Part shown: positions 15,616 through 33,393 of the stretch, piece after piece
Layout of the letters: every line of letters begins with the position of its first letter
Position numbering within the stretch: position 1 is the stretch's first letter
Origin: a virus
Length of the DNA stretch: 52,781 bases
Direction: 5' to 3' (one strand)
Virus record (IMG/VR): IMGVR_UViG_3300047201_000122
Span: 1-52,781 of that record
Program-made: the position numbers and the translations under genes
Notes under the pieces: generated by a model
Seen by the model: the letters and a program-made list of their open reading frames with translations, nothing else
Database searches by the model: none
Told to the model about the DNA's origin: nothing

Positions 15616-16188
15616 ATGGGTAAATTTATAGACTTAACTGGTAATATCTTTGGAAGATTAACAGTAATCAAAAGAGTTAATAATAAATGTAATAAAACAA
15701 TGTGGTTATGCAGATGTAATTGTGGGATGGAAAAAATTGTTTATGCAATTTCTTTAAGAAGTGGTGGCACTCGAAGTTGTGGTTGTCTACATAAAGAAGG
15801 AAACCATAAATTGGATTATGGACTTGCAAGTACGCGAACAAGAATAGGAATGTATAAAGCAAGTGCAAAGAAACGAGGGTTTGAATATAAATTAACAGAA
15901 AAACAATTTAAGGAATTGACAAGACAGGATTGTTATTATTGTGGAGCGAAACCAAATAATATACAAAAAAATAGACATAATAATGGAGCTTACATTTATA
16001 ATGGTATTGATAGAGTTGATAATTCCAAAGGATATACAATAAAAAATATTGTTCCTTGTTGTATAAAATGTAATACAGCAAAAGGAATATCAACAATGAA
16101 AGAATTTAGCGACTGGATAAAAAAGATTTATAAAAATATACAGAAGGAATATCTAAAAGAAGGTGATAATATTGAAAAAGATATTTAG
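15616..16188 (+). CDS. HNH homing endonuclease with N-terminal SCGCL domain (group 3)
   Basis: 190 aa. The N-terminus (LTGNIFGRLTVIKRV, WLCRCNCG, SCGCLHKEG) is the Cys-rich module common in phage HNH proteins. The C-terminal core has CYYCGAKP, GIDRVDNSKGYT and NIVPCCIKCN, a zinc-braced nuclease in which the first His is replaced, then a closing EFSDWIKKIY helix. The gene at 27142 and the fossil at 37139 are its relatives. It is driven by the cassette promoter upstream and overlaps the next gene. Confidence 0.85.
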   Translation: MGKFIDLTGNIFGRLTVIKRVNNKCNKTMWLCRCNCGMEKIVYAISLRSGGTRSCGCLHKEGNHKLDYGLASTRTRIGMYKASAKKRGFEYKLTEKQFKELTRQDCYYCGAKPNNIQKNRHNNGAYIYNGIDRVDNSKGYTIKNIVPCCIKCNTAKGISTMKEFSDWIKKIYKNIQKEYLKEGDNIEKDI

Positions 16189-20844: not shown

Positions 20845-20860
20845 AGAAGGTAATAATAAT

Positions 20861-20889
20861 TTGATAAAAATATCTTTATATGATATAAT
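20861..20889 (+). promoter_or_regulatory. Promoter of pseudoknot-HNH cassette E
   Basis: TTGATA (20861-20866), 17-bp spacer ending TATGA, TATAAT (20884-20889), an extended -10 sigma70-type promoter. Confidence 0.85.
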
Positions 20890-20903
20890 TTTATTAAAGA
20901 AAT

Positions 20904-21006
20904 GGAACGGAAATAAAGTCGATTTTCCAAAATATATAAATGGGGAATTAAGAGATATTAAGAATATACCTTCGACTGTATATTTTCCGTTCCACTCTTG
21001 ATTCCC
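20904..21006 (+). ncRNA. Pseudoknot-type leader RNA upstream of HNH gene (element E)
   Basis: Helix A: GGAACGGAAA (20904-20913) with TTTCCGTTCC (20984-20993), extended inside by AGTCGA (20917-20922) with TCGACT (20972-20977). Helix B: 20943-20954 with 20995-21006, 12 pairs including one U-G. Order A-B-A'-B', so the helices interlock. B' is followed by a U-rich stretch, then RBS and ATG. Confidence 0.6.
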
Positions 21007-21031
21007 TATTTTATTTATTAAGGAGAATTTT

Positions 21032-21763
21032 ATGTTTGATAAGAAAAAATATATGAAGAAATATCGAAAAGATAAAAAAGGACATATTAAGAAATATAAT
21101 AAAAAATATCATAAAGAATATAGTAAAAAGAATAGAGATAAATTAACACAAGATTGTAAACAATGGCGTAAAGATAATCCCGAAAAAGTAAAGAAAATAA
21201 ATCAAAAATGTTATAGAAATCATATCGAAGAACGAAGGGAATATGGTAGACAATATTCTCAAAATAATATTGATTATTATAGAGAAGGTATTAAACAATG
21301 GAGGAAAAATAATCCTGAAAGGATAAAAAAATTGAGAGAAAATTGGTTTAAAAGTCATCCTAATTTTATGAAACAATATTGTAAAATAAAACGAAGAATA
21401 GATTTAAAATATAATCTTAATAATAAAATGCGTTTAGCAATATGGCAATCTCTAAAAGGCAATAAAAATAATAGGCATTGGGAAGGTTTAGTTAATTATA
21501 AATTAATTGAGTTGATTAAACATCTTAAATCTACAATTCCAGAATATTATACTTGGCAGGATTTTTTAAATAATAAATTACATATAGACCATATTATACC
21601 TATATCTGTTTTTAATTTTGATAAACCAGAGAATCCTGATTTTAAGAAATGCTGGGCATTAAATAATTTAAGATTATTACCAGCAAAAGAAAATCATATA
21701 AAATATAATAAATTGATTAGACCTTTCCAACCAGCATTAAAATTATTAAATATATCGAGGTGA
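21032..21763 (+). CDS. HNH homing endonuclease, group 2
   Basis: 243 aa. A long Lys/Tyr/Asn-rich repeat N-terminus (units like QWRKDNPEKVKKINQK) is followed by IDLKYNLNNKMRLAIWQSLK, then HIDHIIPISVFNF, CWALNNLRLLPAKEN and a KPFQPALK-like end. This HNH type lacks the CxxC pairs of group 1. Relatives are at 22770, 25476 and 32560. It is expressed from its own promoter through element E. It was inserted between two fibre genes. Confidence 0.85.
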   Translation: MFDKKKYMKKYRKDKKGHIKKYNKKYHKEYSKKNRDKLTQDCKQWRKDNPEKVKKINQKCYRNHIEERREYGRQYSQNNIDYYREGIKQWRKNNPERIKKLRENWFKSHPNFMKQYCKIKRRIDLKYNLNNKMRLAIWQSLKGNKNNRHWEGLVNYKLIELIKHLKSTIPEYYTWQDFLNNKLHIDHIIPISVFNFDKPENPDFKKCWALNNLRLLPAKENHIKYNKLIRPFQPALKLLNISR

Positions 21764-21768
21764 TTAAA

Positions 21769-22071
21769 ATGGAAAAATATTTAATCGGAGATAAAATAAG
21801 ATTTACTGCTTCCATTGTTAAATTAGGAAGCGTAGAACCAGATATTCCTGATGTAGTAACTATTAGTGTTTATCAAGCGGATGGGACTATTTTGTTAAAT
21901 AAAGCAAATGCAAGTTTAACAAATACACCGGGAAATTATTACTATGATTGGGTTATAGAAAGTTTATCAGAAACAATTCCATTGATTAAAAACTCCCAAT
22001 TAATTGTTTTATGGGATTGGTCTGGCTCACAAAAGAAAAAAATGAACTTTACAGTTGAACCAGTAGTATAA
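21769..22071 (+). CDS. Ig-like appendage domain protein (BppU N-terminal-like)
   Basis: 100 aa from ATG 21769 (SD GAGGTGAT). Sequence such as GDKIRFTASIVKLG, VVTISVYQADGTIL and NYYYDWVI fits the small beta-sandwich found at the N-terminus of baseplate upper proteins and in fibre subunits. It is the last gene of the plus-strand late block; a terminator follows. Confidence 0.6.
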   Translation: MEKYLIGDKIRFTASIVKLGSVEPDIPDVVTISVYQADGTILLNKANASLTNTPGNYYYDWVIESLSETIPLIKNSQLIVLWDWSGSQKKKMNFTVEPVV

Positions 22072-22085
22072 AGAAAAAATATATA

Positions 22086-22163
22086 TTATCTTATCCTTAT
22101 ATTTATCTGCAAGAATCTGCAACTTAAAGGGTTGTAGTCGCACTTTGCGTTAGTGAAATTCAT
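22086..22163 (-). CDS. Minus-strand micro-ORF with perfect SD
   Basis: 25 codons starting MNFTNAKCDYNP, preceded by AGGAGG (22171-22176) seven bases before the ATG. It lies just beyond the bidirectional terminator and could be read only if minus transcription passes it. It could be a real peptide or chance; nothing recognised. Confidence 0.3.
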   Translation of the reverse strand: MNFTNAKCDYNPLSCRFLQINIRIR

Positions 22164-22178
22164 TTTAATACCTCCTTT

Positions 22179-22210
22179 AAAAAAGCCTTCAGGTAAATGA
22201 GGGCTTTTTT
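22179..22210. terminator. Bidirectional intrinsic terminator
   Basis: AAAAAAGCC (22179-22187) pairs with GGCTTTTTT (22202-22210) around a 14-nt loop, with U runs on either strand. It separates the late operon from the convergent HNH gene. Confidence 0.85.
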
Positions 22211-22220
22211 TATGAATGAT

Positions 22221-22535
22221 TTATTTCTCAAAATAGAATTTTACAAAATGTATTTTTACTCTAAAATGTTTTAAATAAAGTTTAACCGCAGTATTATATT
22301 CTGGTAGATTGGATATTTTTTTCCTATATTGCTCAACACTAAGAGCACCTTTTGTAAAATTACAAAACGAGCAGGATGGCATTAGGTTATCAATATTACC
22401 TTTACCTCTATGAGATTTAGGAATAATATGGTCTACATTAAAATCTTCTAAATTGAGGGCATCCCCACAATAACAACATTTCCCAGAAAATTTTTCATAA
22501 ACCATTTTACGTTTATTTTTGCTTATAGATGGCAT
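22221..22535 (-). CDS. Minimal HNH endonuclease on the minus strand
   Basis: 104 aa from the ATG at 22535 (SD AAGGA). Core: CCYCGDALNLEDFNVDHIIP, then NLMPSCSFCNFTKGA, the classic McrA/Cas9-like zinc-braced HNH. It lacks the repeat N-terminus of its neighbours. It is the only sizeable minus-strand gene in the window and has its own promoter. It could be a homing enzyme or a packaging-type HNH, though the latter normally sits beside terminase, which this does not. Confidence 0.85.
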   Translation of the reverse strand: MPSISKNKRKMVYEKFSGKCCYCGDALNLEDFNVDHIIPKSHRGKGNIDNLMPSCSFCNFTKGALSVEQYRKKISNLPEYNTAVKLYLKHFRVKIHFVKFYFEK

Positions 22536-22564
22536 CACTAATTCCTTCTAATTCTTTATTAAGA

Positions 22565-22593
22565 ATTATATCATTAAAAGTGCTATAACTCAA
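22565..22593 (-). promoter_or_regulatory. Minus-strand promoter of the HNH gene
   Basis: On the minus strand TTGAGT (22593-22588), 17-bp spacer ending TGA, TATAAT (22570-22565); extended -10. Confidence 0.75.
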
Positions 22594-22653
22594 ATAGATA
22601 AACGATTGTAATGGCTTGCATACCCTTAGCATACCTTTACAGTAAAGAATAAG

Positions 22654-22698
22654 AAGAATAATAATAATAACAATAATAGTAATAATAACAATAATAAG
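22654..22698. repeat. AAT/AAC/AAG trinucleotide-rich tract
   Basis: A run of AAT units with AAC, AAG and AGT interruptions between two divergent promoters. Purely low-complexity, perhaps easily melted DNA. Confidence 0.8.
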
Positions 22699-22710
22699 TA
22701 AAATTTTTTA

Positions 22711-22739
22711 TTTACTATTCTCTTTTTATATGTTATAAT
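22711..22739 (+). promoter_or_regulatory. Promoter of HNH gene at 22770
   Basis: TTTACT (22711-22716), 17-bp spacer ending TGT, TATAAT (22734-22739); extended -10. The gene follows within 31 bases with no structured leader. Confidence 0.7.
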
Positions 22740-22769
22740 AATAAATAAGAATAAGAAAGGAGAATAGTT

Positions 22770-23492
22770 ATGAGTTATGAAAATAAAATAAAAGAGAAAT
22801 TATACCAACAGGAATATCATAAAAATAATCCTAAAAAACTTAAAAGATATATCGAAAAATTTTATAAAATACATCCCAAGAAGAATGCTGAATATCAACG
22901 AAAATTTCAGTTATTAAATAAAGGATATGGAAAAAAATATCAAGAAAAATTCCATAGAGAACATCCCGAGAAAAATGCCGAATATCAGCGAAAATTTTAC
23001 AAACAAAATAAAAATAAAATAAAAATATATATGGAAAAGTATCGTAAGGATAATAAAGAAATTTTAAATAGATATTCTAATCAATATCGAAAAAACAATA
23101 AAGAAAAACAAAATAAACGTGCAAGAAATAGAAGAAGAATAGATTTAAAATATAATCTTGATAATAGAATAAGAGTAGCAATATGGCAATCTTTAAAAGG
23201 GAATAAAAATGGTAGACATTGGGAAGGTTTAGTTGGTTATTCCTTAAATGATTTAATGAAGCATTTAATAAAGACAATCCCTGAGGGATATATTTGGCAA
23301 GATTATTTCGAAGGTAAATTACATATTGACCATATAATACCTATTTCCGCTTTTAACTTCACTAAACCAGAACATATAGATTTTAAAAGATGTTGGGCTT
23401 TAAATAATTTAAGGTTGTTTCCAGCAAAAGAAAATCATATAAAATATAATAAATTAAATAAACCATTCCAACCTTCATTAAAAATCAGTTAA
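22770..23492 (+). CDS. HNH homing endonuclease, group 2
   Basis: 240 aa. Repeat-rich N-terminus including two near-identical blocks (HPEKNAEYQRKF and HPKKNAEYQRKF), then IDLKYNLDNRIRVAIWQSLK, HIDHIIPISAFNFTKPEH, CWALNNLRLFPAKEN and KPFQPSLK. Same type as the genes at 21032, 25476 and 32560 but without a pseudoknot leader. It has its own promoter. It stands next to the early promoter region. Confidence 0.85.
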   Translation: MSYENKIKEKLYQQEYHKNNPKKLKRYIEKFYKIHPKKNAEYQRKFQLLNKGYGKKYQEKFHREHPEKNAEYQRKFYKQNKNKIKIYMEKYRKDNKEILNRYSNQYRKNNKEKQNKRARNRRRIDLKYNLDNRIRVAIWQSLKGNKNGRHWEGLVGYSLNDLMKHLIKTIPEGYIWQDYFEGKLHIDHIIPISAFNFTKPEHIDFKRCWALNNLRLFPAKENHIKYNKLNKPFQPSLKIS

Positions 23493-23611
23493 GATAATCC
23501 AAAAAATTATTTAAAAACCACCGAAATTAACAAAATATAAAAAGTAGTTTTAAACTTTATTTTTGAGCCATACATACCAACGGTTTCAAGCATTTTTTTT
23601 CACTCCAAAAC

Positions 23612-23640
23612 TTGACAGTTATAAATAAATTATATATAAT
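23612..23640 (+). promoter_or_regulatory. Perfect consensus sigma70 promoter of the early operon
   Basis: TTGACA (23612-23617), exactly 17 bp, TATAAT (23635-23640). The first early gene begins 32 bases downstream. Upstream 23493-23611 has poly-T and A/T tracts but no recognised operator. Confidence 0.9.
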
Positions 23641-23672
23641 ATTTACAATAGGATAAAGAAGGAGATGAAAAA

Positions 23673-24035
23673 ATGGACAAGTTTCAAAAAACACTCGACA
23701 CAAATCACGGAGTCAGTCTTTTAAAATTCAAATATAACGGAACAGAGTTTGATGTAAGAAGCACCGACCATTCTATTTCAAGATTTATAGAAAACGGTAT
23801 AGATGTAGATGCAGCGGTAGGCAGCATAGTTGCACTCGGAAAAGAAAGACTTTACAGATTTGCAAAAGAAAATAGTGATGTGGCAATCATAGACAGAGAA
23901 CATGGTATAGTGACCATTATTACTTTCGAAAGTAACCAGATAAGAATAAGAACTATAATTCCAAATTCAAATGCCTTCATTAAATCAGGAACAAAAATAT
24001 ATAATCTAAATCAAAAGAGTTTTGGAAGGAGATAA
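23673..24035 (+). CDS. DUF4258-like early protein
   Basis: 120 aa. The segment DHSISRFIENGIDVDAAV followed by GKERLYRFAKENSDVAI and GIVTIITF resembles DUF4258, a small fold related to RelE-type and colicin-type RNases, where an early His-x-x-x-R is conserved. A host-takeover toxin role is possible but only inferred. It is the first gene behind the perfect early promoter, a typical place for such genes. Confidence 0.55.
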   Translation: MDKFQKTLDTNHGVSLLKFKYNGTEFDVRSTDHSISRFIENGIDVDAAVGSIVALGKERLYRFAKENSDVAIIDREHGIVTIITFESNQIRIRTIIPNSNAFIKSGTKIYNLNQKSFGRR

Positions 24036-24038
24036 AAA

Positions 24039-24242
24039 ATGGGGATAAGAATAAGTCATAAAAGATTAAATGAGAAAGTAAATTGGTTTGAAGAAAAAAT
24101 CCATCATAGACAATTTTGGACTTGGTATGGATTGGATTATACTGAAATCCAAATCGATGGAGTAAGTACAATATTTCGAAATAATAAAGATGCTTATAAT
24201 TATTTAGATAATTATGGAAAATCGAAAGGAGATAAAAGATGA
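24039..24242 (+). CDS. Early protein, unknown
   Basis: 67 aa, many aromatic residues (RQFWTWYGLDYTEIQI) and a helical C-terminus. SD GAAGGAG, four-base overlap with the next gene. No family recognised. Confidence 0.55.
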   Translation: MGIRISHKRLNEKVNWFEEKIHHRQFWTWYGLDYTEIQIDGVSTIFRNNKDAYNYLDNYGKSKGDKR

Positions 24243-24382
24243 GAGCACTAAAGAATATAAACAAAAAAAGCAGAGAAGAGAAGGAAAGATTATTTAAAGA
24301 CAAGTTATCCTTTGATATATATAAATATACAAGGAAGTTATACAAGAGGAGACAAAAGGATAGGAAGTGTGATGCGGTCTAA
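24239..24382 (+). CDS. Small basic early protein
   Basis: 47 aa, highly basic (KNINKKSREEKERLFKDK, RKLYKRRQKDRK). ATG overlaps the upstream TGA. A five-pair GCGGT/ACCGC hairpin spans its stop. It may bind nucleic acid. Confidence 0.5.
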   Translation: MRALKNINKKSREEKERLFKDKLSFDIYKYTRKLYKRRQKDRKCDAV

Positions 24383-24422
24383 AAACCGCTGGTGAAATAA
24401 AACAAGAAAGGAGTTTAAAAGA

Positions 24423-24665
24423 ATGAATAAGAAAGAAATTAAAATAGTCGTAGATGAGCTAAGAGCAAATAAAAGATATGGGACGGATACTAATATTCTG
24501 GATGGATGCGGGTTATCGGACTTCCCTAAAAGAAAAATGGTTAGGAAAGAAGTCATTGTGGATTTTCTACAATATCAATGTCGTTATCTGAATGGCGGTA
24601 TTGATGAAGAAGAATTAAGCAGTAATATCGAAACATTAAAAGTTAAGAAAGTTATAATGATATAA
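24423..24665 (+). CDS. Early protein, unknown
   Basis: 80 aa, helical, with DILQYQCRYL-like DFLQYQCRYLNGGIDEEEL. Strong SD (GAAAGGAG). No family recognised; part of the early operon. Confidence 0.55.
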   Translation: MNKKEIKIVVDELRANKRYGTDTNILDGCGLSDFPKRKMVRKEVIVDFLQYQCRYLNGGIDEEELSSNIETLKVKKVIMI

Positions 24666-24691
24666 GAAAGAAATAAAAGGAGGATTCTAAA

Positions 24692-24883
24692 ATGTTAAAA
24701 ATCAAAATTGAAACTGATAATGAAGCTTTTCAAAAAGGCAATAAAGAGATTGAACTTGTTAGATGTTTAAAAGATGTTATCGAATGGATTGAGATAGGCA
24801 GGGAAGAAAATCCAATATATGATTTAAACGGAAATAAAGTAGGATATTTTAAACTTCAAAATGATTATATCAGAAAATTATAA
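24692..24883 (+). CDS. Early protein, unknown
   Basis: 63 aa, alternating beta and helix (MLKIKIETDNEAF, LKDVIEWIEIGREE, GNKVGYFKL). Perfect SD (AAAGGAGG). Function not recognised. Confidence 0.55.
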   Translation: MLKIKIETDNEAFQKGNKEIELVRCLKDVIEWIEIGREENPIYDLNGNKVGYFKLQNDYIRKL

Positions 24884-24916
24884 TTAAGATTACTATTTAA
24901 GAAGGGGGTTTTTAAA

Positions 24917-25315
24917 ATGTTAGATGTAACAATATTAAGCGAAAAAAAGAGAAAAGAAAAATCACAAATGGGATATAAATATTTAATCCAAAATGAATAT
25001 GGACAAGGAGAAAATGCTTTCAGGACCAAAAATGGCTTTGTAAATTGGTTGAGAAAATGCAATTTAAGAATAGACCTTAATAATTTTTCAAAGTATAGAT
25101 GGATTATAAAAGGACAGAGAACTTTTAACATTATCGGAGAAGTAGAATTGATTTATAATATCAAAAAGAATGATATACCTAAAAATACAAAACCTATTGC
25201 CTGGCTATTGAATGGAAGTTACCGGATATGTTATGCAGAGAAATTAGATTATGGTTGTAAAATATACGCTCAGAATTATTCAGAGATTAAAACATTACCT
25301 TATAAATGGTATTAA
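24917..25315 (+). CDS. Early protein, unknown
   Basis: 132 aa, mixed alpha/beta with Trp/Tyr-rich segments (FVNWLRKCNLRIDL, FSKYRWIIKGQR). Last gene of the first early cluster; a promoter follows at once. No family recognised. Confidence 0.55.
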   Translation: MLDVTILSEKKRKEKSQMGYKYLIQNEYGQGENAFRTKNGFVNWLRKCNLRIDLNNFSKYRWIIKGQRTFNIIGEVELIYNIKKNDIPKNTKPIAWLLNGSYRICYAEKLDYGCKIYAQNYSEIKTLPYKWY

Positions 25316-25330
25316 AAAGGAGATTAATAT

Positions 25331-25359
25331 TTGATAATTCCAAATAAATATGATATAAT
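25331..25359 (+). promoter_or_regulatory. Promoter of pseudoknot-HNH cassette H
   Basis: TTGATA (25331-25336), 17-bp spacer ending TGA, TATAAT (25354-25359). The expected start site coincides with the first base of helix A. Confidence 0.85.
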
Positions 25360-25365
25360 TTAATA

Positions 25366-25460
25366 GGTAATAAGTGAGCAGTTTTTTTAGTTTATAAAAG
25401 GCACAAAGTAGGTTTAGGAATATTAACTGTTCCTTATTACCAACCGAAATGTGCCTTTTT
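25366..25460 (+). ncRNA. Pseudoknot-type leader RNA upstream of HNH gene (element H)
   Basis: Helix A: GGTAATAAG (25366-25374) with CTTATTACC (25433-25441), plus CAGTT (25379-25383) with AACTG (25425-25429). Helix B: AAAGGCACA (25397-25405) with TGTGCCTTT (25450-25458), then U-rich. A U7 loop (25382-25388) lies between A and B. Single-stranded AAGTAGGTTTAGGAAT and CGAAA are shared with element K. Confidence 0.7.
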
Positions 25461-25475
25461 TGTTAGGAGAAGATT

Positions 25476-26192
25476 ATGGAATTAAAACAATATTATATTA
25501 AATTAAAAAGAAAAATAAATGAGGCTGAAAAATATTATAAAGAATACCCTGATAAATTAACTCCAATATATAAAGAAAAACTTATAAAGGCAAAGGAAAG
25601 ATATAATAAGGAATATCTTAAACTTAATGGGGATAAAAAAAGAAAAGCGGCAAAAATATATCGAAATGAACATAAAAAAGATATAAAAGAGAAAAATAAA
25701 AAATATTGGAAAGAACATCTTAAAGAAAGACATGAAAATAGTAAAAGATATTATAATAAAAATTATGAAAAAATACATAAATGGCAAATGGAGTATGCGA
25801 AAAATAGACACAAAACAGATTTAAAATATAATCTTAGGATGAAAATAAGTAAAGCAATAAATCAATCTCTAAGATATTGTAAAAAAGTTAAAAGTAATAA
25901 AAATGGTAGACATTGGGAAGACCTTGTAGGTTATAAACTAAACGATTTAATTATTAGATTATTATCTACTATGCCAGAAGGTTATACTTGGGAAGACGTT
26001 AAAAGGGGAGAATTGCATATAGACCATATCATACCTATAAGTGTATTTAATTTTACTAAACCAGAGCATATAGATTTTAAGAGATGTTGGGAATTGGAAA
26101 ATTTGCGGTTATTATCCAAAAAAGATAATTTGATAAAAAATGCTAAATTAACAAAACCATTCCAACCATCATTATTATTAGAAGAATTATAA
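25476..26192 (+). CDS. HNH homing endonuclease, group 2
   Basis: 238 aa. Repeat-type basic N-terminus, then TDLKYNLRMKISKAINQSLR, HIDHIIPISVFNFTKPEH, CWELENLRLLSKKDN and KPFQPSL. It is read from its own promoter through pseudoknot element H, with RBS TTAGGAG directly after helix B'. It sits between two unrelated early genes. Same family as 21032, 22770 and 32560. Confidence 0.85.
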   Translation: MELKQYYIKLKRKINEAEKYYKEYPDKLTPIYKEKLIKAKERYNKEYLKLNGDKKRKAAKIYRNEHKKDIKEKNKKYWKEHLKERHENSKRYYNKNYEKIHKWQMEYAKNRHKTDLKYNLRMKISKAINQSLRYCKKVKSNKNGRHWEDLVGYKLNDLIIRLLSTMPEGYTWEDVKRGELHIDHIIPISVFNFTKPEHIDFKRCWELENLRLLSKKDNLIKNAKLTKPFQPSLLLEEL

Positions 26193-26368
26193 ATAATATC
26201 AAAAAGTTGCTTATGATTATACCTCTAAAGGAAAGAAACGCATCCTGGAGCGTCCTACGACATCGATATTTTTCTAAAATTGAATAAAATGTATATGTAT
26301 CAACGATTTCAAGTAAAATTCGCTTTTTCGGATTATGTATAGATATATCTTGGCAAGTATTTTGAGGG
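26193..26368 (+). other. Non-coding stretch, nothing certain
   Basis: No gene, promoter or strong hairpin seen. One plus-strand frame stays open for about 38 codons (including THPGASYDIDIFL) without a usable start and RBS, so it may hold a decayed gene. The complementary open frame is hydrophobic and looks like a shadow. Confidence 0.4.
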
Positions 26369-26500
26369 ATGAAAACCTCTTCTAAGGGCAAAATTATAGC
26401 AATTAGGGGATATTTGGAAATGAATTTAATATTAATCGGAGATAATCTTGTTAGGGTTGATATTAAAACTAAATTAATACACCTTATCAGAAACAATTAA
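26369..26500 (+). CDS. Possible small protein
   Basis: 43 codons (MKTSSKGKIIAIRGYLEM, then INLILIG-like NLILIGDNLVRVDIKTK). A GAGGG precedes the ATG by one base, which is too close; an internal ATG at residue 18 is an alternative. It is followed directly by the RBS of the next gene. Weak case. Confidence 0.35.
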   Translation: MKTSSKGKIIAIRGYLEMNLILIGDNLVRVDIKTKLIHLIRNN

Positions 26501-26513
26501 GAGAGGAGATTGA

Positions 26514-26927
26514 ATGAAAGTTATCAACGAAACGGATTATGATACTAAAGAATTAAAAGAATTATTTACGAGATGTTGCCAGGAGAAGTTAAGCGATCAT
26601 AACAAGTTGCTGGTAAAAGTTAGATACACTACAAGTAGATTTATCTTAGGATGGGCGTGGACAAAGATTGAGATAGCATTACCTAAAAAATATTTAGATA
26701 TAGATTTTATAAAGAAGAGATGGAGAGATACTTATGAAAACCATTTAATATTTTTAAATTTTAATCGAGTTTTAGCTTTTGTGTTTATACACGAAACCTT
26801 TCATATTCTTCATCAGCATCATAGTGATATGAGAGGAAGTTATTATAGCGGTTGGAATAAATTCCTTGCAAATTCAAGTAGATTAAGTTTCGCTGATAGT
26901 TTTAATATCTTAAAGAAAGGAGATTAA
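26514..26927 (+). CDS. HETFH zinc metalloprotease-like protein (SprT/zincin type)
   Basis: 137 aa. HETFH at 93-97 matches HExxH within a hydrophobic helix (VLAFVFIHETFHILHQHH), the zinc site of minimal SprT- or WLM-type metalloproteases; H100 is a possible third ligand. The N-terminal half has strands expected ahead of the site. Such proteases process DNA-bound proteins or host targets; the substrate here is unknown. It starts a four-gene run in the early region. Confidence 0.6.
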   Translation: MKVINETDYDTKELKELFTRCCQEKLSDHNKLLVKVRYTTSRFILGWAWTKIEIALPKKYLDIDFIKKRWRDTYENHLIFLNFNRVLAFVFIHETFHILHQHHSDMRGSYYSGWNKFLANSSRLSFADSFNILKKGD

Positions 26928-26928
26928 A

Positions 26929-27111
26929 ATGGATATAATTAAAAAAGATAATTACGCACCATTTAATGAAAGCAGAATAAATTTTATACAGTTTGCAAGA
27001 GAAGTAGAACATTATACCGGTTGTAAACAAAATAGAAGCAGGTTAAAATTTAGGTTACTTGACCATCAGAATATATTCACCACTGAATTCACTTATTTCC
27101 TTAAAATATAA
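26929..27111 (+). CDS. Small protein, unknown
   Basis: 60 aa with a basic middle (YTGCKQNRSRLKFRLLDHQN). It begins one base after the protease gene, so is probably co-translated with it. No family recognised. Confidence 0.5.
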   Translation: MDIIKKDNYAPFNESRINFIQFAREVEHYTGCKQNRSRLKFRLLDHQNIFTTEFTYFLKI

Positions 27112-27141
27112 TAAACAATAATTATATGAGGTAAAAAATAA

Positions 27142-27705
27142 ATGTCAAAATTAATAGATATAACAGGGCAAAAGTTTGGGAGATTAACGGTAATTAGAAG
27201 AGAACCTAACGATAAGTGGGAAAATACAAGATGGTTGTGTAAATGTTCTTGTGGCAAAAGCAAAATTATTTTGGTAACAAGTTTAACAAGTGGAGCTACT
27301 AAAAGTTGTGGTTGTTTACAAAAAGAAATTATAGGGAATATCAGAAGATTAAAATCGGGACTTTCCACCATAAGAGCGATAATAAATAATTATAAAGGTG
27401 GAGCAAGAAGTAGAGGATATAATTTTAATTTAACAGAAAAACAATTTATTGAATTAACACAAAAAGATTGTTTCTATTGTGGAACAAAACCAAATACTAT
27501 AGCTAAATGGGGACATTGTTATGGAGAATATATTTATAATGGATTAGATAGAATAGAAAACAATAAAGGATATACGATAGATAATGTCGTTCCTTGTTGT
27601 TTTGTTTGTAATCGAGCAAAAGATACAATGACATTACAAGAATTTCAAAATTGGATTAAGAAAGTTTATAGTAAAACGTTTACTAAAAAAGGAGAAATAA
27701 AATGA
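27142..27705 (+). CDS. HNH homing endonuclease with N-terminal SCGCL domain (group 3)
   Basis: 187 aa. N-terminal ITGQKFGRLTVIRREPND, WLCKCSCGKS and SCGCLQKE, then CFYCGTKP, GLDRIENNKGYT, CCFVCNRAKDTMT and EFQNWIKKVYS. It is a close relative of the gene at 15616 but lacks that gene's promoter cassette; the -10-like TATAAT at 27107 has no good -35. The stop overlaps the next ATG. Confidence 0.85.
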   Translation: MSKLIDITGQKFGRLTVIRREPNDKWENTRWLCKCSCGKSKIILVTSLTSGATKSCGCLQKEIIGNIRRLKSGLSTIRAIINNYKGGARSRGYNFNLTEKQFIELTQKDCFYCGTKPNTIAKWGHCYGEYIYNGLDRIENNKGYTIDNVVPCCFVCNRAKDTMTLQEFQNWIKKVYSKTFTKKGEIK

Positions 27706-27908
27706 AGTGCTGGGAATGTAAAAAGAAAATTGACCATTGCCATAGGGTTTTTTATTGTGATAAGTTTGTAGAAAAAGGAAGAGATGTTTGCGATAATTGT
27801 TATAAACAATTAAAATTTAATCCTTGCCATTTTGCAGAAGTTAAGAAGATAACTGGAAGACAATTAGATTTGAAATTTTATAAAGTTAAAATTATGCACT
27901 GGTTATGA
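27702..27908 (+). CDS. Small zinc-finger protein
   Basis: 68 aa with CWEC, a His/Cys-rich middle (HCHRVFYC) and CDNC, suited to two zinc ions, LIM-like. ATG overlaps the upstream stop. Probably a nucleic-acid or protein adaptor; no family recognised. Confidence 0.55.
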   Translation: MKCWECKKKIDHCHRVFYCDKFVEKGRDVCDNCYKQLKFNPCHFAEVKKITGRQLDLKFYKVKIMHWL

Positions 27909-27920
27909 AAGGAGAAGAAA

Positions 27921-28049
27921 ATGCCAAAGGCGATTTGTAAAAAATGCGGAAAGATATTTTGGGGTTGGGCTTTGAAATACAAAGATAGTTATTGTGATTG
28001 TTGCGGAGAGAAATTAGAAATAACTGAAATCCCTGACCCGAGAGATTAA
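27921..28049 (+). CDS. Small zinc-ribbon protein
   Basis: 42 aa with CKKCG near the start and CDCCG 19 residues later: a minimal rubredoxin-like or zinc-ribbon knuckle pair. Strong SD (GAAAGGAG). Follows another zinc-finger gene by 12 bases. Confidence 0.6.
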   Translation: MPKAICKKCGKIFWGWALKYKDSYCDCCGEKLEITEIPDPRD

Positions 28050-28102
28050 AAATGTTAAGGAGCAGATGTAAATTAACTTTTATTAGAAATTAATTGCTTT
28101 TT

Positions 28103-28187
28103 AATCTCTATCAAAATATCGGGATTGGGGACGTTAGAATATATCTGTGATTAATTTAATCATTGGAGATTTAGTGCTTCCCAATCC
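28103..28187 (+). other. Possible structured RNA between two early genes
   Basis: AATCTC (28103-28108) with GAGATT (28166-28171) interlocks with GGATTGGG (28122-28129) and CCCAATCC (28180-28187); a perfect TGATTAA/TTAATCA hairpin (28148-28162) lies inside. No promoter was seen before it and the helices are short. The rest of 28050-28201 shows no gene. Confidence 0.3.
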
Positions 28188-28201
28188 TCATAAAAAATAT
28201 G

Positions 28202-28230
28202 TTGACTTTTATTTATAATTAGTATATAAT
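28202..28230 (+). promoter_or_regulatory. Promoter of the radical SAM / tmRNA-like transcript
   Basis: TTGACT (28202-28207), 17-bp spacer, TATAAT (28225-28230); the gene starts 33 bases on. It probably also drives the small RNA at 29076. Confidence 0.85.
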
Positions 28231-28262
28231 TTATATAATAAGCAAAAAGGGGTAAAAAAGAG

Positions 28263-29072
28263 ATGGGTATAATCTATAAACCTCAAGGCAAAGCGAAGGA
28301 ATACAGTCCTTACGCATTGAATATCTATATTGGATGTGACTACGCTTGCAGATATTGCTATATCAAAAATCTCTATGTTAATAACGAAAAGGTAAAACTT
28401 AGAGAAAATCTTATTTCGGGACTAGAGAATCAACTAAAAAAGCAGGAAATAAATAAACAAGTATTATTAAGTTTTCTCGGAGACCCCTATTGTATTGCAG
28501 ATATAGAATACAAAAAAACAAGAGAAACTCTGGAAATACTTAATCAATATGATGTTCCTGTCGCTATCCTATCTAAAGGCGGGAATCGGATACTAAGGGA
28601 TTTGGATTTATTCAAAAAATTTAAGAAGATAAAAGTAGGAGCTACTTTAACCCTCTTAGATAAAAAACAAAATGAATATTACGAGCCTAAAGCTGCATCA
28701 ACTGGAGAAAGAATATGCGTATTAAGAAAATTACATCAAGAAGGTATTCGGACTTGGGTTAGTTTTGAACCAGTTATAGATCCAGAGCAAACCTTAAAAA
28801 TATTGGAATTAACTAAAGATTTTGTAGATGAGTTTAAAGTGGGGAAAATGAATTATTTCCAATTACCGCAAAGTATAAATTGGGGAATATTTGGCGAGAG
28901 TATATCTAAGAGATTATTAGAAATACAAAAAGATTTTTATATTAAAAAAGATTTATATAAGTATATGGATTATAAGTTACAGCCAAAATATATAGACCAA
29001 GATTACCTGGCATTAAAAGACGATACGGAAACGATTAAAGAAAAAGATATAGAGCAACAAATATTATTTTAA
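28263..29072 (+). CDS. Radical SAM enzyme, SPL-like
   Basis: 269 aa. C25, C29 and C32 in GCDYACRYC form the CxxxCxxC site for the 4Fe-4S cluster. The opening NIYIGCDYACRYCYIK, followed by LLSFLGDPY, resembles the spore-photoproduct-lyase-like branch (SplB/Rv2578c type). The substrate is unknown; a DNA- or RNA-modifying role is possible. It has its own promoter and ends three bases before the tmRNA-like RNA, so both are probably on one transcript. Confidence 0.8.
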   Translation: MGIIYKPQGKAKEYSPYALNIYIGCDYACRYCYIKNLYVNNEKVKLRENLISGLENQLKKQEINKQVLLSFLGDPYCIADIEYKKTRETLEILNQYDVPVAILSKGGNRILRDLDLFKKFKKIKVGATLTLLDKKQNEYYEPKAASTGERICVLRKLHQEGIRTWVSFEPVIDPEQTLKILELTKDFVDEFKVGKMNYFQLPQSINWGIFGESISKRLLEIQKDFYIKKDLYKYMDYKLQPKYIDQDYLALKDDTETIKEKDIEQQILF

Positions 29073-29075
29073 TAT

Positions 29076-29204
29076 GGGGGCGACAGGTTTCGATAGTTAT
29101 CTTCCAACGGGCGGGTCCCTCCTAAAGATAAATAGATTTATAACCTTGGAGTCTTTAGATAGGAAAGATGCTATACTCGGGTTCGATTCCCGACGCCTCC
29201 ACCA
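29076..29204 (+). ncRNA. Miniature tmRNA-like RNA (tRNA-like domain without tag region)
   Basis: 129 nt. Acceptor stem GGGGGCG (29076-29082) pairs with CGCCTCC (29194-29200), with G-U at the third pair, the alanine identity mark. Discriminator A and CCA (29201-29204) are encoded. T stem TCGGG/CCCGA (29177-29181, 29189-29193) closes TTCGATT. The 5' GGTTTCGA (29087-29094) is the conserved tmRNA D-loop analogue. P2 pairs ATAG, ATCTT and CC (29093-29105) with 29162-29174. The interior holds two short hairpins (29122-29128 with 29152-29158; 29128-29133 with 29136-29141) and no convincing tag frame. Bacterial tmRNAs are about 260-430 nt. There is no anticodon arm, so it is not a tRNA. Confidence 0.85.
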
Positions 29205-29318
29205 ATATTTGAAGTAGCTATATTATAATATACCAGAAAAATTAACTACGCGAAAAAGAGTGTTTTCTTAGGTATTCAAGGCATACCAAAAATAAAAAAA
29301 AGAAAGGAGAGGATATAT

Positions 29319-29489
29319 ATGCTACATCCAGCAATAATAAGACAAAGAGCAAGAAATAAAACAATATGGATAGCCAGAGAATATCATAAACCCTTACAAT
29401 TGAAGGCGAGGGAGTTGGGATGTTCGATGACTTTTTTACTAAATCAGATACTTAAAAAATATTTTGAAAAAGGAGTAAAAAATGAATAA
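29319..29489 (+). CDS. Small RHH-like DNA-binding protein
   Basis: 56 aa. Basic N-terminus (IIRQRARNKTIWIAREYHK), then LQLKARELGCSMTFLLNQIL, which fits the helix-turn-helix part of a ribbon-helix-helix domain. Strong SD (AAAGGAGAGG). Stop lies inside the next gene. Could regulate the exonuclease operon. Confidence 0.5.
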   Translation: MLHPAIIRQRARNKTIWIAREYHKPLQLKARELGCSMTFLLNQILKKYFEKGVKNE

Positions 29490-30402
29490 GAAAGAAATCG
29501 ATAATGTAAAAGTTAGATTTGATACATTATTGAGTGAATTGTTACAAAATATGAACGAGAAAGAGGACCTGCTGTCAAATAGAGTAATGGAAATTAATAT
29601 GGGAGTTAGTGGGACTATTAGCACGGCCAGTTTTGAGAATTGGAAACCGGGGTTTGGTATGAAGGTGAATACCGAAGGATTAACTAAAGAGCAAATAAGA
29701 GAAGCATATTTACAAGGCAAGGCAGAATTAAAAGGGCAGTTTAATCTGGAGAAGAATAATTGCAGGGCAGAAGCAGTATCGGAGAAATTTAAGAATATTG
29801 GATTTACTATAGTAAATAATATCGCCTATGTTTGGATTACCAGCGTTTGCAATTATGATAAAATATTTATGATTCCAGAATTTGAACTTAATCAATATTC
29901 CAGCAGGGGCAAAATTATCCACGAATTGATATATGAATTTATTAAGACAAAGAAGTGGATAGAAAATATCACTATTTTTTGTGAGGAGAAAGGGTTGATT
30001 GAGGATTTAGCCATAGTTCAGAAAGGAAATTTGAAATTAAGTATAGAGGATTGCAGTTATAAAAAAGTTATGGAAAATTGTATTGACAAAATAGAAGAAC
30101 CAGAATTTGAAGTTGAAGTAATAAATGATGAACATCTTTATAAGGGGAGAGCCGATTTCTTCTGCAAATGGGAAAAAATTCCCACAGTAGTAGATATAAA
30201 GGTAGGTTCAGCAAGGGATATGATGCAATTAGGAGCTGAGGCAGTATGCAAATTTGGAACAAAAAAGATGATTATAATTCCCGCTGGAGAATCTGATACC
30301 AAACAAGGATATTCAAAACCAATTGAGAATGAAAATGTTACAGAAGAATTTAAAAGATTTATTAAAAAGAGAGATAAATTTTTTAAAAAGTTTGGATTTT
30401 AA
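29482..30402 (+). CDS. PD-(D/E)XK exonuclease of the recombination module
   Basis: 306 aa. Catalytic residues are visible: E148 in GKIIHELI, D225 in GRAD (222-225), and D238-x-K240 in VVDIK, with MMQLGAEAV after it, the Cas4/RecB-like order. The N-terminal 130 residues are family-specific and include a basic helix. Such enzymes resect phage DNA ends for recombination and concatemer formation. The partner ATPase is at 31162, separated by a homing endonuclease. Note D in place of E in the last motif. Confidence 0.75.
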   Translation: MNKKEIDNVKVRFDTLLSELLQNMNEKEDLLSNRVMEINMGVSGTISTASFENWKPGFGMKVNTEGLTKEQIREAYLQGKAELKGQFNLEKNNCRAEAVSEKFKNIGFTIVNNIAYVWITSVCNYDKIFMIPEFELNQYSSRGKIIHELIYEFIKTKKWIENITIFCEEKGLIEDLAIVQKGNLKLSIEDCSYKKVMENCIDKIEEPEFEVEVINDEHLYKGRADFFCKWEKIPTVVDIKVGSARDMMQLGAEAVCKFGTKKMIIIPAGESDTKQGYSKPIENENVTEEFKRFIKKRDKFFKKFGF

Positions 30403-30417
30403 TCGGAAGGAAATAAG

Positions 30418-31017
30418 ATGAGAATAAAAGGAACATATCATCATTCTGAAAAAACGAAAGAAAAAATAAGTAAATCACATATTGGAAAACATTTATCAGA
30501 AGAATCAAAAAGAAAAATAAGTATATCTAATCTTGGAAAATCTCCTAATCGTTTAGGAATATCTCATACAGAAGAGACAAGAAAAAAAATGAGCAAATCT
30601 CATCTTGGGAATAAATCTACCTTAGGCAAACATCTTTCAGAAGAACATAAAAATAAAATAAGTAAATCTCTTAAAAAGGAAAAACATCCTAATTGGCAAG
30701 GAGGTATTTCATATCAAAAAGGATATGGTAATTTTAAAACTAGAAGAAGAAATATTAAGAAATATAATAATGGAGGTTTCCATACCATTGGAGATTGGGA
30801 GAATTTAAAAGCACAATATAATTGGATTTGTCCTTGTTGTGGGAAAAGAGAACCTGAAATAAAATTATCAGAAGACCACATAATACCAATAACGAAAGGG
30901 GGTAGTGATAATATAGAAAATATACAACCACTTTGTAAGTCTTGTAATTCAAGAAAATTTACAAAGATAATTAGATATAATGAAGGGAGATATATAAAAT
31001 GTATAGAAGTCAATTAA
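30418..31017 (+). CDS. HNH homing endonuclease with NUMOD3 repeats (group 4)
   Basis: 199 aa. Three to four NUMOD3 modules ([58 protein letters not shown]) bind DNA along the minor groove; the nuclease has [36 protein letters not shown] and CKSCNSRK. It separates the exonuclease and ATPase genes. The C-terminus overlaps the next start. Confidence 0.85.
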
Positions 31018-31175
31018 AAAGAAAGATTAATAGCGTAATGGCAAAATATGGAAATGATAATAAATATTTAAGATGGAATATGGTCAATATGATAATGGAA
31101 TTGGTAGATTTATATTATACTAAATTCAAAATTAAATATGATGAAAGGAAATTAAAAGAAAATGAAAATCATTAA
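30999..31175 (+). CDS. Small helical protein
   Basis: 58 aa, basic and helical ([38 protein letters not shown]). It overlaps the HNH gene before it and the ATPase after it by a few bases, so it was probably the original partner of the ATPase. SD GAAGGGAG. No family recognised. Confidence 0.55.
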
Positions 31176-32421
31176 TTTAAAAAGTAATAATTTAAAAGGT
31201 ATCAAGGCAATAGATATAACACCAAAAGATGATATGGTAATCATATCTGGTAAGAATGGAGCAGGAAAAACTTCGGCACTTGATTCAATATGGTACGCGA
31301 CAGAGTGGAAGGCAGGCTCTAAAGGTACTCCGATGCCAATCAGAAAGGGAGAAAAATTTGCAGATGTTAGGTTAACTCTATGTGAGGATTTAACAAAAGA
31401 GCAAATCGAGCAAGGGATAAAACCTAAACCGTTATTCATCGTTTATAGAAGCTGGACTTTAACTGGGAATACATATCTAAAAGTTACCAATGCAGAAGGT
31501 TTAGCCTATGATACACCCCAGAAGTTATTAGATGGGTTTATCGGATATTTGAGTTTCGACCCCAGAATATTTGCACGTATGAATGATAAAGAGCAGAGAG
31601 ATTTATTAATTAAAATAACAGGATTCGATGTTACTGCAATAGAGGAGAAAATAGTTGAATTAAGAGAGAAAAGAAGATTGCAAGGGCAAAAGGTTAAATT
31701 GCTATCTGGAGAAAGAGAAGAAATACTCATTGAGGATTTACCGGAGAAAGAAATTTCAATAGCTGAAATGAACGATAAATTACAAAAGGCTCTCTATGAG
31801 AATCAGCAATTAGAAAGAAATATAGAAGGGTTAGAAGAGGCTAAAACAGAATTACGTAAATATGAATTAGAAGTAGAAAGATTTAAATTAATAATAAAAG
31901 GAAGAAAAGATTATATAGCAAATCATAAAAAGATTGATGTAGATGATATGAAATCTCAATTATTAAAAGCTTCGGTTATCAATGACCAGATTAAGGCTCG
32001 CAAACGAAACGAAGAATCTGATAAAAAACAAAAAGAAGCTCAGAACGTTTATGACGAGTTTACTCAAGGGATAGAAAGTTATACTACCGAATTGAAAGAA
32101 GGTCTTAAAAAATCGTGGTCTAAAATTCCTGACCAGAAATTGAGTTTGACTGAAACGGGTATTGCCTATGACGGTATCCCGTACTCTCAAATATCATTTT
32201 CTGAACAATTAATAATTGCTCTGAGAATTGGGATGGCTCTAAATACAATATTAAGAGTGATAAGAATTTCAGATTATTCATTATTAGACGAGGAAAGCAA
32301 AAAAACCATTAGGCAAATGTCTAAGGACGAGAATTATCAAATATGGGCTGAGACTGTAGACGGGACCGGGGAAATTGGTTTCTACATCGAGAATGGAGAA
32401 ATAGTTGACAAACGAAAGTAG
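31162..32421 (+). CDS. AAA/SMC-type recombination ATPase
   Basis: 419 aa. Walker A GKNGAGKTS at 30-38 near the N-terminus, a 150-residue coiled coil (about 170-300) and a short C-terminal ATPase part with ISFSEQLIIALRIGMAL (signature region) and YSLLDEESKKT (Walker B-like). This is the RecF/SbcC-like ATPase common next to phage exonucleases. The final codons contain the -35 box of the next HNH cassette. Probably works with the nuclease at 29482. Confidence 0.75.
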   Translation: MKIINLKSNNLKGIKAIDITPKDDMVIISGKNGAGKTSALDSIWYATEWKAGSKGTPMPIRKGEKFADVRLTLCEDLTKEQIEQGIKPKPLFIVYRSWTLTGNTYLKVTNAEGLAYDTPQKLLDGFIGYLSFDPRIFARMNDKEQRDLLIKITGFDVTAIEEKIVELREKRRLQGQKVKLLSGEREEILIEDLPEKEISIAEMNDKLQKALYENQQLERNIEGLEEAKTELRKYELEVERFKLIIKGRKDYIANHKKIDVDDMKSQLLKASVINDQIKARKRNEESDKKQKEAQNVYDEFTQGIESYTTELKEGLKKSWSKIPDQKLSLTETGIAYDGIPYSQISFSEQLIIALRIGMALNTILRVIRISDYSLLDEESKKTIRQMSKDENYQIWAETVDGTGEIGFYIENGEIVDKRK

Positions 32422-32433
32422 ATAATATATAAT
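32405..32433 (+). promoter_or_regulatory. Perfect consensus promoter of pseudoknot-HNH cassette K
   Basis: TTGACA (32405-32410), 17-bp spacer, TATAAT (32428-32433). The -35 lies inside the ATPase gene end. The expected start site is at the foot of helix A. Confidence 0.9.
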
Positions 32434-32440
32434 ATTAAGT

Positions 32441-32544
32441 GAGAGTAAGAGAAGCGGTTTTTTTATTATAAATATAAAAGGACGCAAAGTAAGTGTAAGA
32501 ATCTTTGACCGCTTCTTACTCTCAAACTGAAATGCGTCCTTTTT
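32441..32544 (+). ncRNA. Pseudoknot-type leader RNA upstream of HNH gene (element K)
   Basis: Helix A: GAGAGTAAG (32441-32449) plus AAGCGGT (32452-32458) pair with ACCGCTTCTTACTCTC (32508-32523), 16 pairs with a two-base bulge. Helix B: AAAAGGACGCA (32476-32486) with TGCGTCCTTTT (32533-32543). A U7 loop follows A; AAGTAAGTGTAAGAAT and CTGAAA match element H. Helix sequences differ from element H while the pairing is kept. Confidence 0.7.
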
Positions 32545-32559
32545 ATTTAGGAGAAAATT

Positions 32560-33174
32560 ATGCTTAGTAGAAAAGAGATAGATAGAAGATATTATCTTGG
32601 ACATAAAGAAAAAGTAAAAGAAAAAAATAGAAAGTTTAGAGAAGAGAATCCTTTATATTCCAAAAAATGGTGGGAAAATAATCGTAGAAAACAAAAGAAA
32701 TATCAAATGGAATGGAAAAAGAAGAATATAAAGAAGGCAAAAGAAATTTGGGATAAATATTATATGGAGAATATCACAAATATAAGAATAAGAGATAAAA
32801 AATTCAAAAAGGAAAAATATAAAACTGATTTAAGATATCATATTAATGATTTAATGAGTAGAGCAATAAGACATTCTTTAAAGGGGAATAAGAATAATCG
32901 TAGTTGGAGTATTCTCGTAGATTATAAATTGAATGATTTGATAAGACATCTCAAAAAGACTTTACCTGATGGTTATATTTGGCAAGACTATATAGAAGGC
33001 AAACTACATATAGACCATATAATCCCAGTTACTGCTTTTAACTTTACTAAACCAGAACATATAGATTTTAAAAGATGTTGGGCTTTGGGAAATTTAAGAT
33101 TATTGCCAGCAAGGGAAAATATAAAAAAGAATAATAAATTATCTAAACCGTTTCAACCTGCATTAAAAATATAA
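32560..33174 (+). CDS. HNH homing endonuclease, group 2
   Basis: 204 aa. Shorter basic repeat N-terminus, then TDLRYHINDLMSRAIRHSLK, HIDHIIPVTAFNFTKPEH, CWALGNLRLLPAREN and KPFQPALK. It is read from a perfect promoter through pseudoknot element K, with RBS TTAGGAG after helix B'. It is inserted just after the ATPase gene. Confidence 0.85.
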   Translation: MLSRKEIDRRYYLGHKEKVKEKNRKFREENPLYSKKWWENNRRKQKKYQMEWKKKNIKKAKEIWDKYYMENITNIRIRDKKFKKEKYKTDLRYHINDLMSRAIRHSLKGNKNNRSWSILVDYKLNDLIRHLKKTLPDGYIWQDYIEGKLHIDHIIPVTAFNFTKPEHIDFKRCWALGNLRLLPARENIKKNNKLSKPFQPALKI

Positions 33175-33192
33175 AAGAAAGGAGATAAGAAT

Positions 33193-33393
33193 ATGGATAT
33201 GAAATTTATCTGGATATTCCTAATATGGTCAGTTATAATGATAATCTTGGTAAGTAATAAATTGAGAAAAGAAAAGGAAGAAAAGATGACTATAAGTAAA
33301 AAAGGATTAAAGAATTATGATAAGCCATTAGAAATGAGTATTGGAGAGAGATTAAGAAGGAAAAATAATTCAAAAGGGGGATTAAAATGGTAG
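33193..33393 (+). CDS. Small membrane-anchored protein
   Basis: 66 aa. N-terminal hydrophobic helix (FIWIFLIWSVIMIILV) followed by a basic tail (KGLKNYDKPLEMSIGERL). Strong SD (GAAAGGAG). Overlaps the next gene. Unknown. Confidence 0.55.
   Translation: MDMKFIWIFLIWSVIMIILVSNKLRKEKEEKMTISKKGLKNYDKPLEMSIGERLRRKNNSKGGLKW

Follow-up and report, generated by a model that had tools for sequence, protein, structure and literature searches.

A pseudoknotted leader RNA upstream of HNH endonuclease genes in a virus genome: a candidate portable control module

Introduction

Why should three HNH genes in one viral genome each stand behind a promoter of their own and a leader RNA predicted to fold into a pseudoknot? 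The genome is the IMG/VR record IMGVR_UViG_3300047201_000122, a linear virus record of 52,781 bases that was analysed over its whole length and is called the window below. A preliminary description, made from the sequence alone, had placed the same arrangement at three positions, and we see it at those coordinates in all three elements: a sigma70-like promoter with a 17-nucleotide (nt) spacer, two interlocking helices in the order A-B-A'-B', a U-run, a Shine-Dalgarno sequence and an HNH gene. The question reaches beyond this virus, as homing endonuclease genes spread through phages though potentially hazardous, and the dosing of free-standing ones at new sites is poorly known. Comparison with ten additional copies strongly supports an RNA structure under selection. 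The function that we favour, a portable cis-acting leader whose pseudoknotted B stem, terminator-like and adjoining the ribosome-binding site, would limit or gate expression of the nuclease, stands about evenly balanced between right and wrong.

Three elements with one architecture

The features of the three elements, and of the fourth group-2 HNH gene of the window, are as follows.

20861 to 20889, plus strand: element 1, promoter (TTGATA, 17 nt, TATAAT)
20903 to 21009, plus strand: element 1, pseudoknot RNA of type 2, from the pseudoknot search with 0 of 1000 shuffles
20903-20913 and 20917-20922, pairing with 20972-20977 and 20983-20994: element 1, helix A
20940-20954, pairing with 20995-21009: element 1, helix B (exact register by eye; gap between A' and B' of 0)
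21032 to 21763, plus strand: element 1, group-2 HNH gene, endonuclease VII-like, phrog_1035
22770 to 23492, plus strand: fourth group-2 HNH gene, an RNA-free contrast
25331 to 25359, plus strand: element 2, promoter (TTGATA, 17 nt, TATAAT)
25366 to 25459, plus strand: element 2, pseudoknot RNA of type 1, from covariation and strand permutation; 102.9 bits with model R1 (copy included in the model)
25366-25374 and 25379-25383, pairing with 25425-25429 and 25433-25441: element 2, helix A
25396-25405, pairing with 25450-25459: element 2, helix B
25406-25424 and 25442-25449: element 2, loop motifs
25465-25469: element 2, Shine-Dalgarno AGGAG, directly 3' of the U-run
25476 to 26192, plus strand: element 2, group-2 HNH gene
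32405 to 32433, plus strand: element 3, promoter (TTGACA, 17 nt, TATAAT)
32440 to 32543, plus strand: element 3, pseudoknot RNA of type 1, from covariation and strand permutation; 94.8 bits with model R1 (copy included in the model)
32440-32449 and 32452-32458, pairing with 32508-32514 and 32515-32524: element 3, helix A
32476-32486, pairing with 32533-32543: element 3, helix B
32549-32553: element 3, Shine-Dalgarno AGGAG
32560 to 33174, plus strand: element 3, group-2 HNH gene

Elements 2 and 3 have 6 nt between the end of the -10 box and helix A, and element 1 has 13 nt. Elements 2 and 3 have the motifs U7, AAGTARGTNTARGAAT and GAAATG in common, and element 1 is without them, as the preliminary description had implied. 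Taking the simple summed stacking energy of the best crossing helix pair as a measure, elements 1, 2 and 3 reach -41.2, -42.2 and -55.5 kcal/mol against dinucleotide-shuffle means of -23.9, -22.0 and -22.3, and the observed value was reached in none of 1000 shuffles for any of them. Upstream of the HNH gene at 22770-23492 there is no comparable pseudoknot, the best candidate (-28.1 kcal/mol) consisting mostly of one helix in a simple-sequence stretch.

Copies of the leader and covariation of its helices

Thirteen distinct copies, the three of the window among them, were gathered through HNH relatives, loop-motif patterns and the pseudoknot search, a number that is a lower bound; the ten copies beyond the window lie in other viral contigs, all from IMG/VR. 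Ten copies form type 1 and have the loop motifs in common: elements 2 and 3, three copies on the single contig L082 (at 6983, 9233 and 10866, the first present also in L110), and those of L041 (the same as L054), L043 (at 6081), L076, L346 and L340 (the same as L341). Type 2 keeps the topology only and comprises element 1 and the copies of L006 (the same as L007 and L008) and L281. The model R1, built from eight type 1 copies with helix B as its sole structure, scores the ten type 1 copies at 67-107 bits, L346 (89.6) and L340 (67.0) being outside the model, and does not detect the type 2 copies.

Covariation in a larger alignment had been named beforehand as a test that could refute a selected structure, and covariation is present. 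In the R1 alignment of the ten type 1 copies 87.6% of 258 cells are paired, the covariation score is 0.526, and two-sided changes occur in 18 of the 26 base pairs (11 of 16 in helix A, 7 of 10 in helix B). None of 500 shuffles of this alignment reaches any of five measures, and sliding it by 1-3 columns lowers pairing to 39-55%. Helix A is outside the R1 fit, and its register was picked on the same alignment. A strand permutation on 12 copies (L281 left out, strands taken by hand) gives own-strand pairing of 1.000 for lower A, 1.000 for upper A and 0.986 for B, against permuted means of 0.587, 0.519 and 0.611, with the own value arising in 0 of 20000 permutations in each case; because the strands were selected for pairing, the permutation, and not the pairing percentage, is the test. 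Helix B of element 1 entered it in a shifted register (four Watson-Crick pairs and one G-U pair of six), where the pseudoknot search shows a longer B stem. The proposal of a selected RNA structure is thus strongly supported by covariation in both helices (10 sequences) and by the strand permutation (12 copies).

These patterns also bear on whether the repeats act as DNA, either as a homing target or as a cruciform substrate for endonuclease VII-like enzymes. The resemblance of the group-2 genes to endonuclease VII (phrog_1035) speaks for such a role, but the helices vary freely in compensated pairs while the unpaired type 1 loop motifs are fixed, strand and promoter geometry are fixed as well, and an HNH_3-type gene (L076) has the same leader, so that we regard a DNA-level feature as barely credible. 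A self-cleaving ribozyme or a riboswitch aptamer, which the invariant loop residues of the type 1 pseudoknot might suggest, is remote: type 2 keeps the position without those loop residues, and no Rfam 15 family, in particular no ribozyme or riboswitch, matches the RNA, either for the window at gathering score or for 20700-33300 at E<=5. The ribozyme-like unit offered in the preliminary description is therefore disfavoured.

Specificity and reach of the searches

Of 80 group-2 loci, the 72 with at least 500 nt upstream were scanned for a promoter plus pseudoknot, and 8 were dropped. Six loci, representing four distinct sequences, score at or below -43.7, and the other 66 all score at or above -30.9; the L281 copy was detected by this search alone, independently of loop motifs. 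Over 5060 promoter-like sites from all loci, the 13 hits at or below -41 are 11 of the listed elements, the candidate L043 2190 and a tandem repeat in L352. The top two hits of a reversed-sequence control (5058 sites) are reversed element 3 and a reversed L082 copy, followed by one at -33.2, and a smaller energy scan gave one reversed-control hit at -42.9. False positives of the energy scan come from GC-rich coding stretches and the L352 tandem repeat, which score well. Two later pattern scans returned at least 77 stretches each, mostly by chance, from which the true copies were selected by the pseudoknot search; L001-L003, from the first pattern scan, were judged chance matches in which the structure is absent.

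Beyond the viral contigs, 53 pattern stretches in genome contigs gave no such pseudoknot among the best 45 ranked hits, the best R1 match having E = 0.4. A search of 391 class-level bacterial genomes with R1, scoring 10 candidates per genome, returned none, an empty answer that is uninformative, and BLASTN found no relatives of element 2 among phages and none of element 3 among plasmids.

Two further stretches are outside the count of 13. At 2185-2345 of L043 there is a type 2-like pseudoknot (candidate stretch 2190-2330) with two good helices and a very long B stem; the frame downstream starts as a group-2 HNH gene would, has CTG as its sole opening codon and matches nothing in Pfam. At about 8904-9075 of L423 a strong promoter precedes a long-loop 18-base-pair stem with a U-run and a gene of 57 residues that is not of the HNH type; its helix A is weak, and it is a possible nuclease-free relative of type 2. 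Another repeated leader hairpin possibly occurs at about 2245-2335 of L024 and 6215-6290 of L287, on one contig, where a common leader (AGAGCTCCACTTTAGAGAGCCA...GGCTCT plus a U-run) precedes an HNH gene in one case and another phage gene in the other.

Genes behind the leader

An HNH gene lies directly downstream in 12 of the 13 firm copies. Eight of these 12 genes are group-2 members (elements 1-3, two in L082, and those of L043, L006 and L281), whose named PHROG hits, where present, include phrog_1035, 'endonuclease VII'; the nucleases of element 2 and L006 have no hit. The L041 nuclease is a distant relative of that of element 2 (39% identity over 101 residues), the L346 nuclease is related to the window genes at 15616 and 27142 (53-55%), the L340 nuclease matches PF14279/PF01844 and the L076 nuclease PF13392 (HNH_3-type). 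On the family matches phrog_1035, PF13392 and PF14279/PF01844 the products are assigned as putative endonucleases. For the element 2 nuclease, neither the predicted structure (mean pLDDT 75, pTM 0.45; E<=0.001) nor a sequence profile search (E<=1) finds a match in the PDB, so it is the PHROG hits that carry the link to endonuclease VII.

Among the pairs listed, the L346, L340 and L076 proteins have no BLASTP match to group-2 proteins, bar a 20-residue hit for L076. The L346 and L340 proteins match phrog_1035 at the PHROG level, and remote kinship within the HNH enzymes is therefore possible. Element 2 and L346 have leaders that agree at 95% of 97 ungapped columns, yet their genes have no BLASTP match, which points to recent leader-gene recombination.

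That a structured RNA sits directly upstream of an HNH gene within a mobile unit also recalls a ribonucleoprotein, with the RNA as partner of the nuclease as in IscB and its RNA. The HNH domains of the L341 and L346 genes match the IscB model weakly, at 19.5 and 12.9 bits, far under its cut-off of 175; 19.5 bits is the best such value among 10 downstream proteins compared with NCBIfam. Moreover, the nucleases are 157-250 residues long and very unlike one another, Rfam HEARO gives no match, and no guide-like match of element 1 to the window rises above shuffles among the matches listed. An RNA partner is accordingly a very remote prospect.

Around these genes, the window record is unusually rich in HNH-type genes: about eight further HNH-type or HNH-like genes of several families occur (2445, 4201, 15616, 22221-, 27142, 30418, 40324 and 44092).

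Mobility of the cassette

In L341 the unit occupies 6037-6778 between two genes; in the relatives L402 and L403 (46-47% identity) this pair of genes is separated by 10 and 26 nt, and the homologous site lacks promoter, RNA and HNH gene alike. Gain at a site that is empty in relatives, the mark of a free-standing homing endonuclease cassette, is thus found in L341 compared with L402 and L403, and the suggestion that the RNA is part of a mobile element gains support from this joint absence in two relatives. The GC content of the unit is 27% in L076, against 45 and 42% in its flanks, and 30% in L341, against 40 and 39%. Because the L076 unit is antisense to its flanking genes, it would be served by its own promoter. 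The related phage L082 has no counterpart of element 1 at the matching site, nor has the window counterparts of the L082 copies at 6983 and 10866, in comparisons too diverged for exact ends. Insertions are intergenic and interrupt no gene in the cases examined.

Structure, promoter geometry, position, insertion as a unit and the swapping of genes can all be read from the sequences. The promoter, the RNA and the gene appear to be acquired together, as a unit, and the knotted RNA, standing before quite different nuclease genes, resembles a portable control element that travels with them.

Leader anatomy

The leader RNA is 95-120 nt long. A promoter-like pair is found in all 12 leaders tested, with a spacer of 17 nt in 11 and of 16 nt in L076, and the -10 box is separated from helix A by 4-7 nt in 10 of the 12 (13 nt in element 1 and L006); given this distance, the predicted transcript start falls at about the first base of helix A in most leaders. 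In type 1 the first loop carries a U-run, the second AGTARGT followed by a TARRA-like word, and the third CYGAAA. Type 2 has 0-1 nt between A' and B' and a longer B. Behind the B stem, of 7-19 base pairs, a U-run extends right up to the Shine-Dalgarno sequence, the 8 nt after the B core containing 6-8 T in 12 of 12 leaders (counted by eye), and the start codon lies about 19-32 nt 3' of the B core. A stem with a U-run, the feature of an intrinsic terminator, is therefore present in 12 of 12. In the HNH-bearing leaders examined the Shine-Dalgarno sequence comes after B' and outside A and B; some nested minimum free energy (MFE) folds pair it, though not within the conserved helices. We dropped, by reasoning, a triple helix between U-run and B stem, since the purines are on the B 5' strand.

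The position of helix A could also serve a passive leader, its 5' end held in helix A to protect the mRNA and the U-rich stretch before the Shine-Dalgarno sequence aiding ribosome loading. In E. coli a paired 5' end stabilises mRNA; in 10 of 12 leaders the first base predicted to be transcribed is close to the start of helix A, and the same module stands before quite different genes. A simple hairpin would suffice for this, however, and a pseudoknot with conserved AGTARGT and CYGAAA loops (type 1) exceeds the need, so that we consider a merely stabilising leader unlikely.

Proposed mechanism and the points against it

Under the gating reading, the elements would be self-contained mobile cassettes of a sigma70-type promoter, a pseudoknotted leader and an HNH endonuclease gene. 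We infer where transcription starts, how it ends, what is gated and to what purpose. Transcription would begin with the first base of helix A or slightly 5' of it, and the RNA 5' end would therefore be sealed in a long stem. Helix A would close first, because A' is transcribed before B', and B' would then pair with bases within the A loop. The B stem and U-run right before the Shine-Dalgarno sequence suggest a gate on transcription, translation or both, the B stem acting as a conditional terminator and/or ribosome gate, so that only a fraction of transcripts would yield nuclease. As quite different genes use the leader, no gene-specific regulator would be needed, and the purpose may be to hold a hazardous nuclease at a low dose. 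Attenuation of the HNH gene, among the functions first proposed, fits this anatomy of a stem and U-run directly before the Shine-Dalgarno sequence.

Since both helices are long, A should hinder the full winding of B during transcription. Helix A could in that case be an antiterminator by topology, the long B having to wind through the A loop while polymerase holds the RNA. A more specific proposal, which we think unlikely, is a topological attenuator: a mobile promoter-pseudoknot head captures nuclease genes of different families, and the early-closed A blocks winding of the B terminator until released. If true, topology and not competition between base pairs would exert the control, and the RNA head would persist as nuclease genes are acquired and lost, defining a class of mobile elements. 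The folding order of a pseudoknot with such long stems is directly testable.

Several observations weigh against gating by the leader. Nested MFE folds of single sequences give A in some copies and B in others, so that the joint presence of both helices is a prediction. Mutually exclusive pairing was sought by a column search over 10 sequences, which gave only short matches between invariant columns, for example U-run with GAAA; a classical switch is not visible, because A and B share no bases and no third conserved pairing competes. Helix B closes a loop of about 45-60 nt, unusually long for an intrinsic terminator, and a strong terminator within a phage operon should harm the genes downstream. 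The leader is absent from 66 of the 72 group-2 HNH loci scanned. Finally, L082 9233-9342, the positional orthologue of element 3, keeps a compensated structure without an HNH gene and is followed by the next operon gene; it may represent a bare ancestral RNA or what a deletion left behind.

This HNH-free copy favours an independent small RNA, trans-acting or structural, in which promoter and B stem with U-run bound a stable transcript of about 100 nt and the nuclease gene merely lies behind. Promoter and terminator-like end do frame the RNA exactly, the HNH-free copy is fully paired and shows compensated changes when set against element 3, and L423 at about 8930-9060 is a second possible nuclease-free case, with a weak helix A. 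Yet the nuclease gene directly follows all the other firm copies, type 2 is without the type 1 loop motifs, and matches of element 1 elsewhere in the window do not exceed shuffles among those listed. We judge a small RNA improbable, and both it and the plain stabilising leader are live rivals to the gating leader.

Other features of the window

At 29076-29204 (plus strand) the window has a 129-nt match to transfer-messenger RNA (tmRNA) of 53.6 bits, above gathering and the only such Rfam match of the window. Both tRNA-like ends are kept (5' GGGGGCGAC, 3' ...CCTCCACCA), and nearly all of the middle, including the tag region, is gone; ARAGORN does not call this stretch as tmRNA. It is either a miniature phage tmRNA or a remnant. 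At 28090-28200 (plus strand) a long-loop inverted repeat, GGGATTGGGGA/TTCCCAATCC, lies upstream of the promoter-like TTGACT-TATAAT of a radical-SAM-like gene; it is not of the pseudoknot leader family.

Comparison with known systems

In the open-licence literature searched we found no description of a shared mobile pseudoknot leader, and several known systems resemble it in part. Like the RNA described here, HEARO, the omega RNA of IscB, is structured, belongs to a mobile unit and lies immediately 5' of an HNH endonuclease gene; for our leaders, however, there is no Rfam HEARO match and no IscB-type protein, and several nuclease groups use the leader. Composites of group I introns with homing endonucleases, and IStrons, combine one RNA module with different endonuclease families, as is seen here, but our leaders have no Rfam intron match and occupy intergenic sites. 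The put RNAs of HK022 and similar cis-acting antitermination RNAs lie right after the promoter. By description only, the leader is like them in starting at the promoter and in that it could set the termination of its own transcript; it differs in ending in a stem and U-run.

A further comparison is with the homing endonuclease genes of T4-type phages. In the passages of PMC2988022 that deal with I-TevI, I-TevII, I-TevIII, segB and Aeh1 mobE, a 5' RNA structure sequesters the Shine-Dalgarno sequence and is left incomplete in late transcripts that initiate within it, and for seg43(25) of Aeromonas phage 25 a very stable hairpin is predicted immediately 5' of a Shine-Dalgarno sequence that is itself free. 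As far as those passages go, the likeness lies in a phage homing endonuclease gene with a 5' RNA structure by its Shine-Dalgarno sequence and, for most, a nearby promoter (PMC2988022). The leader described here differs in lying wholly downstream of its promoter, helix A starting 4-13 nt past the -10 box in 12 of 12, and in being a pseudoknot whose conserved helices leave the Shine-Dalgarno sequence free and which is common to quite different nuclease genes. RNA control of homing endonuclease genes is thus already known, and the pseudoknot leader would be a new RNA family; a mobile promoter-RNA leader traded between different nucleases would, if the gating reading is true, be a general answer to the dosing of such genes.

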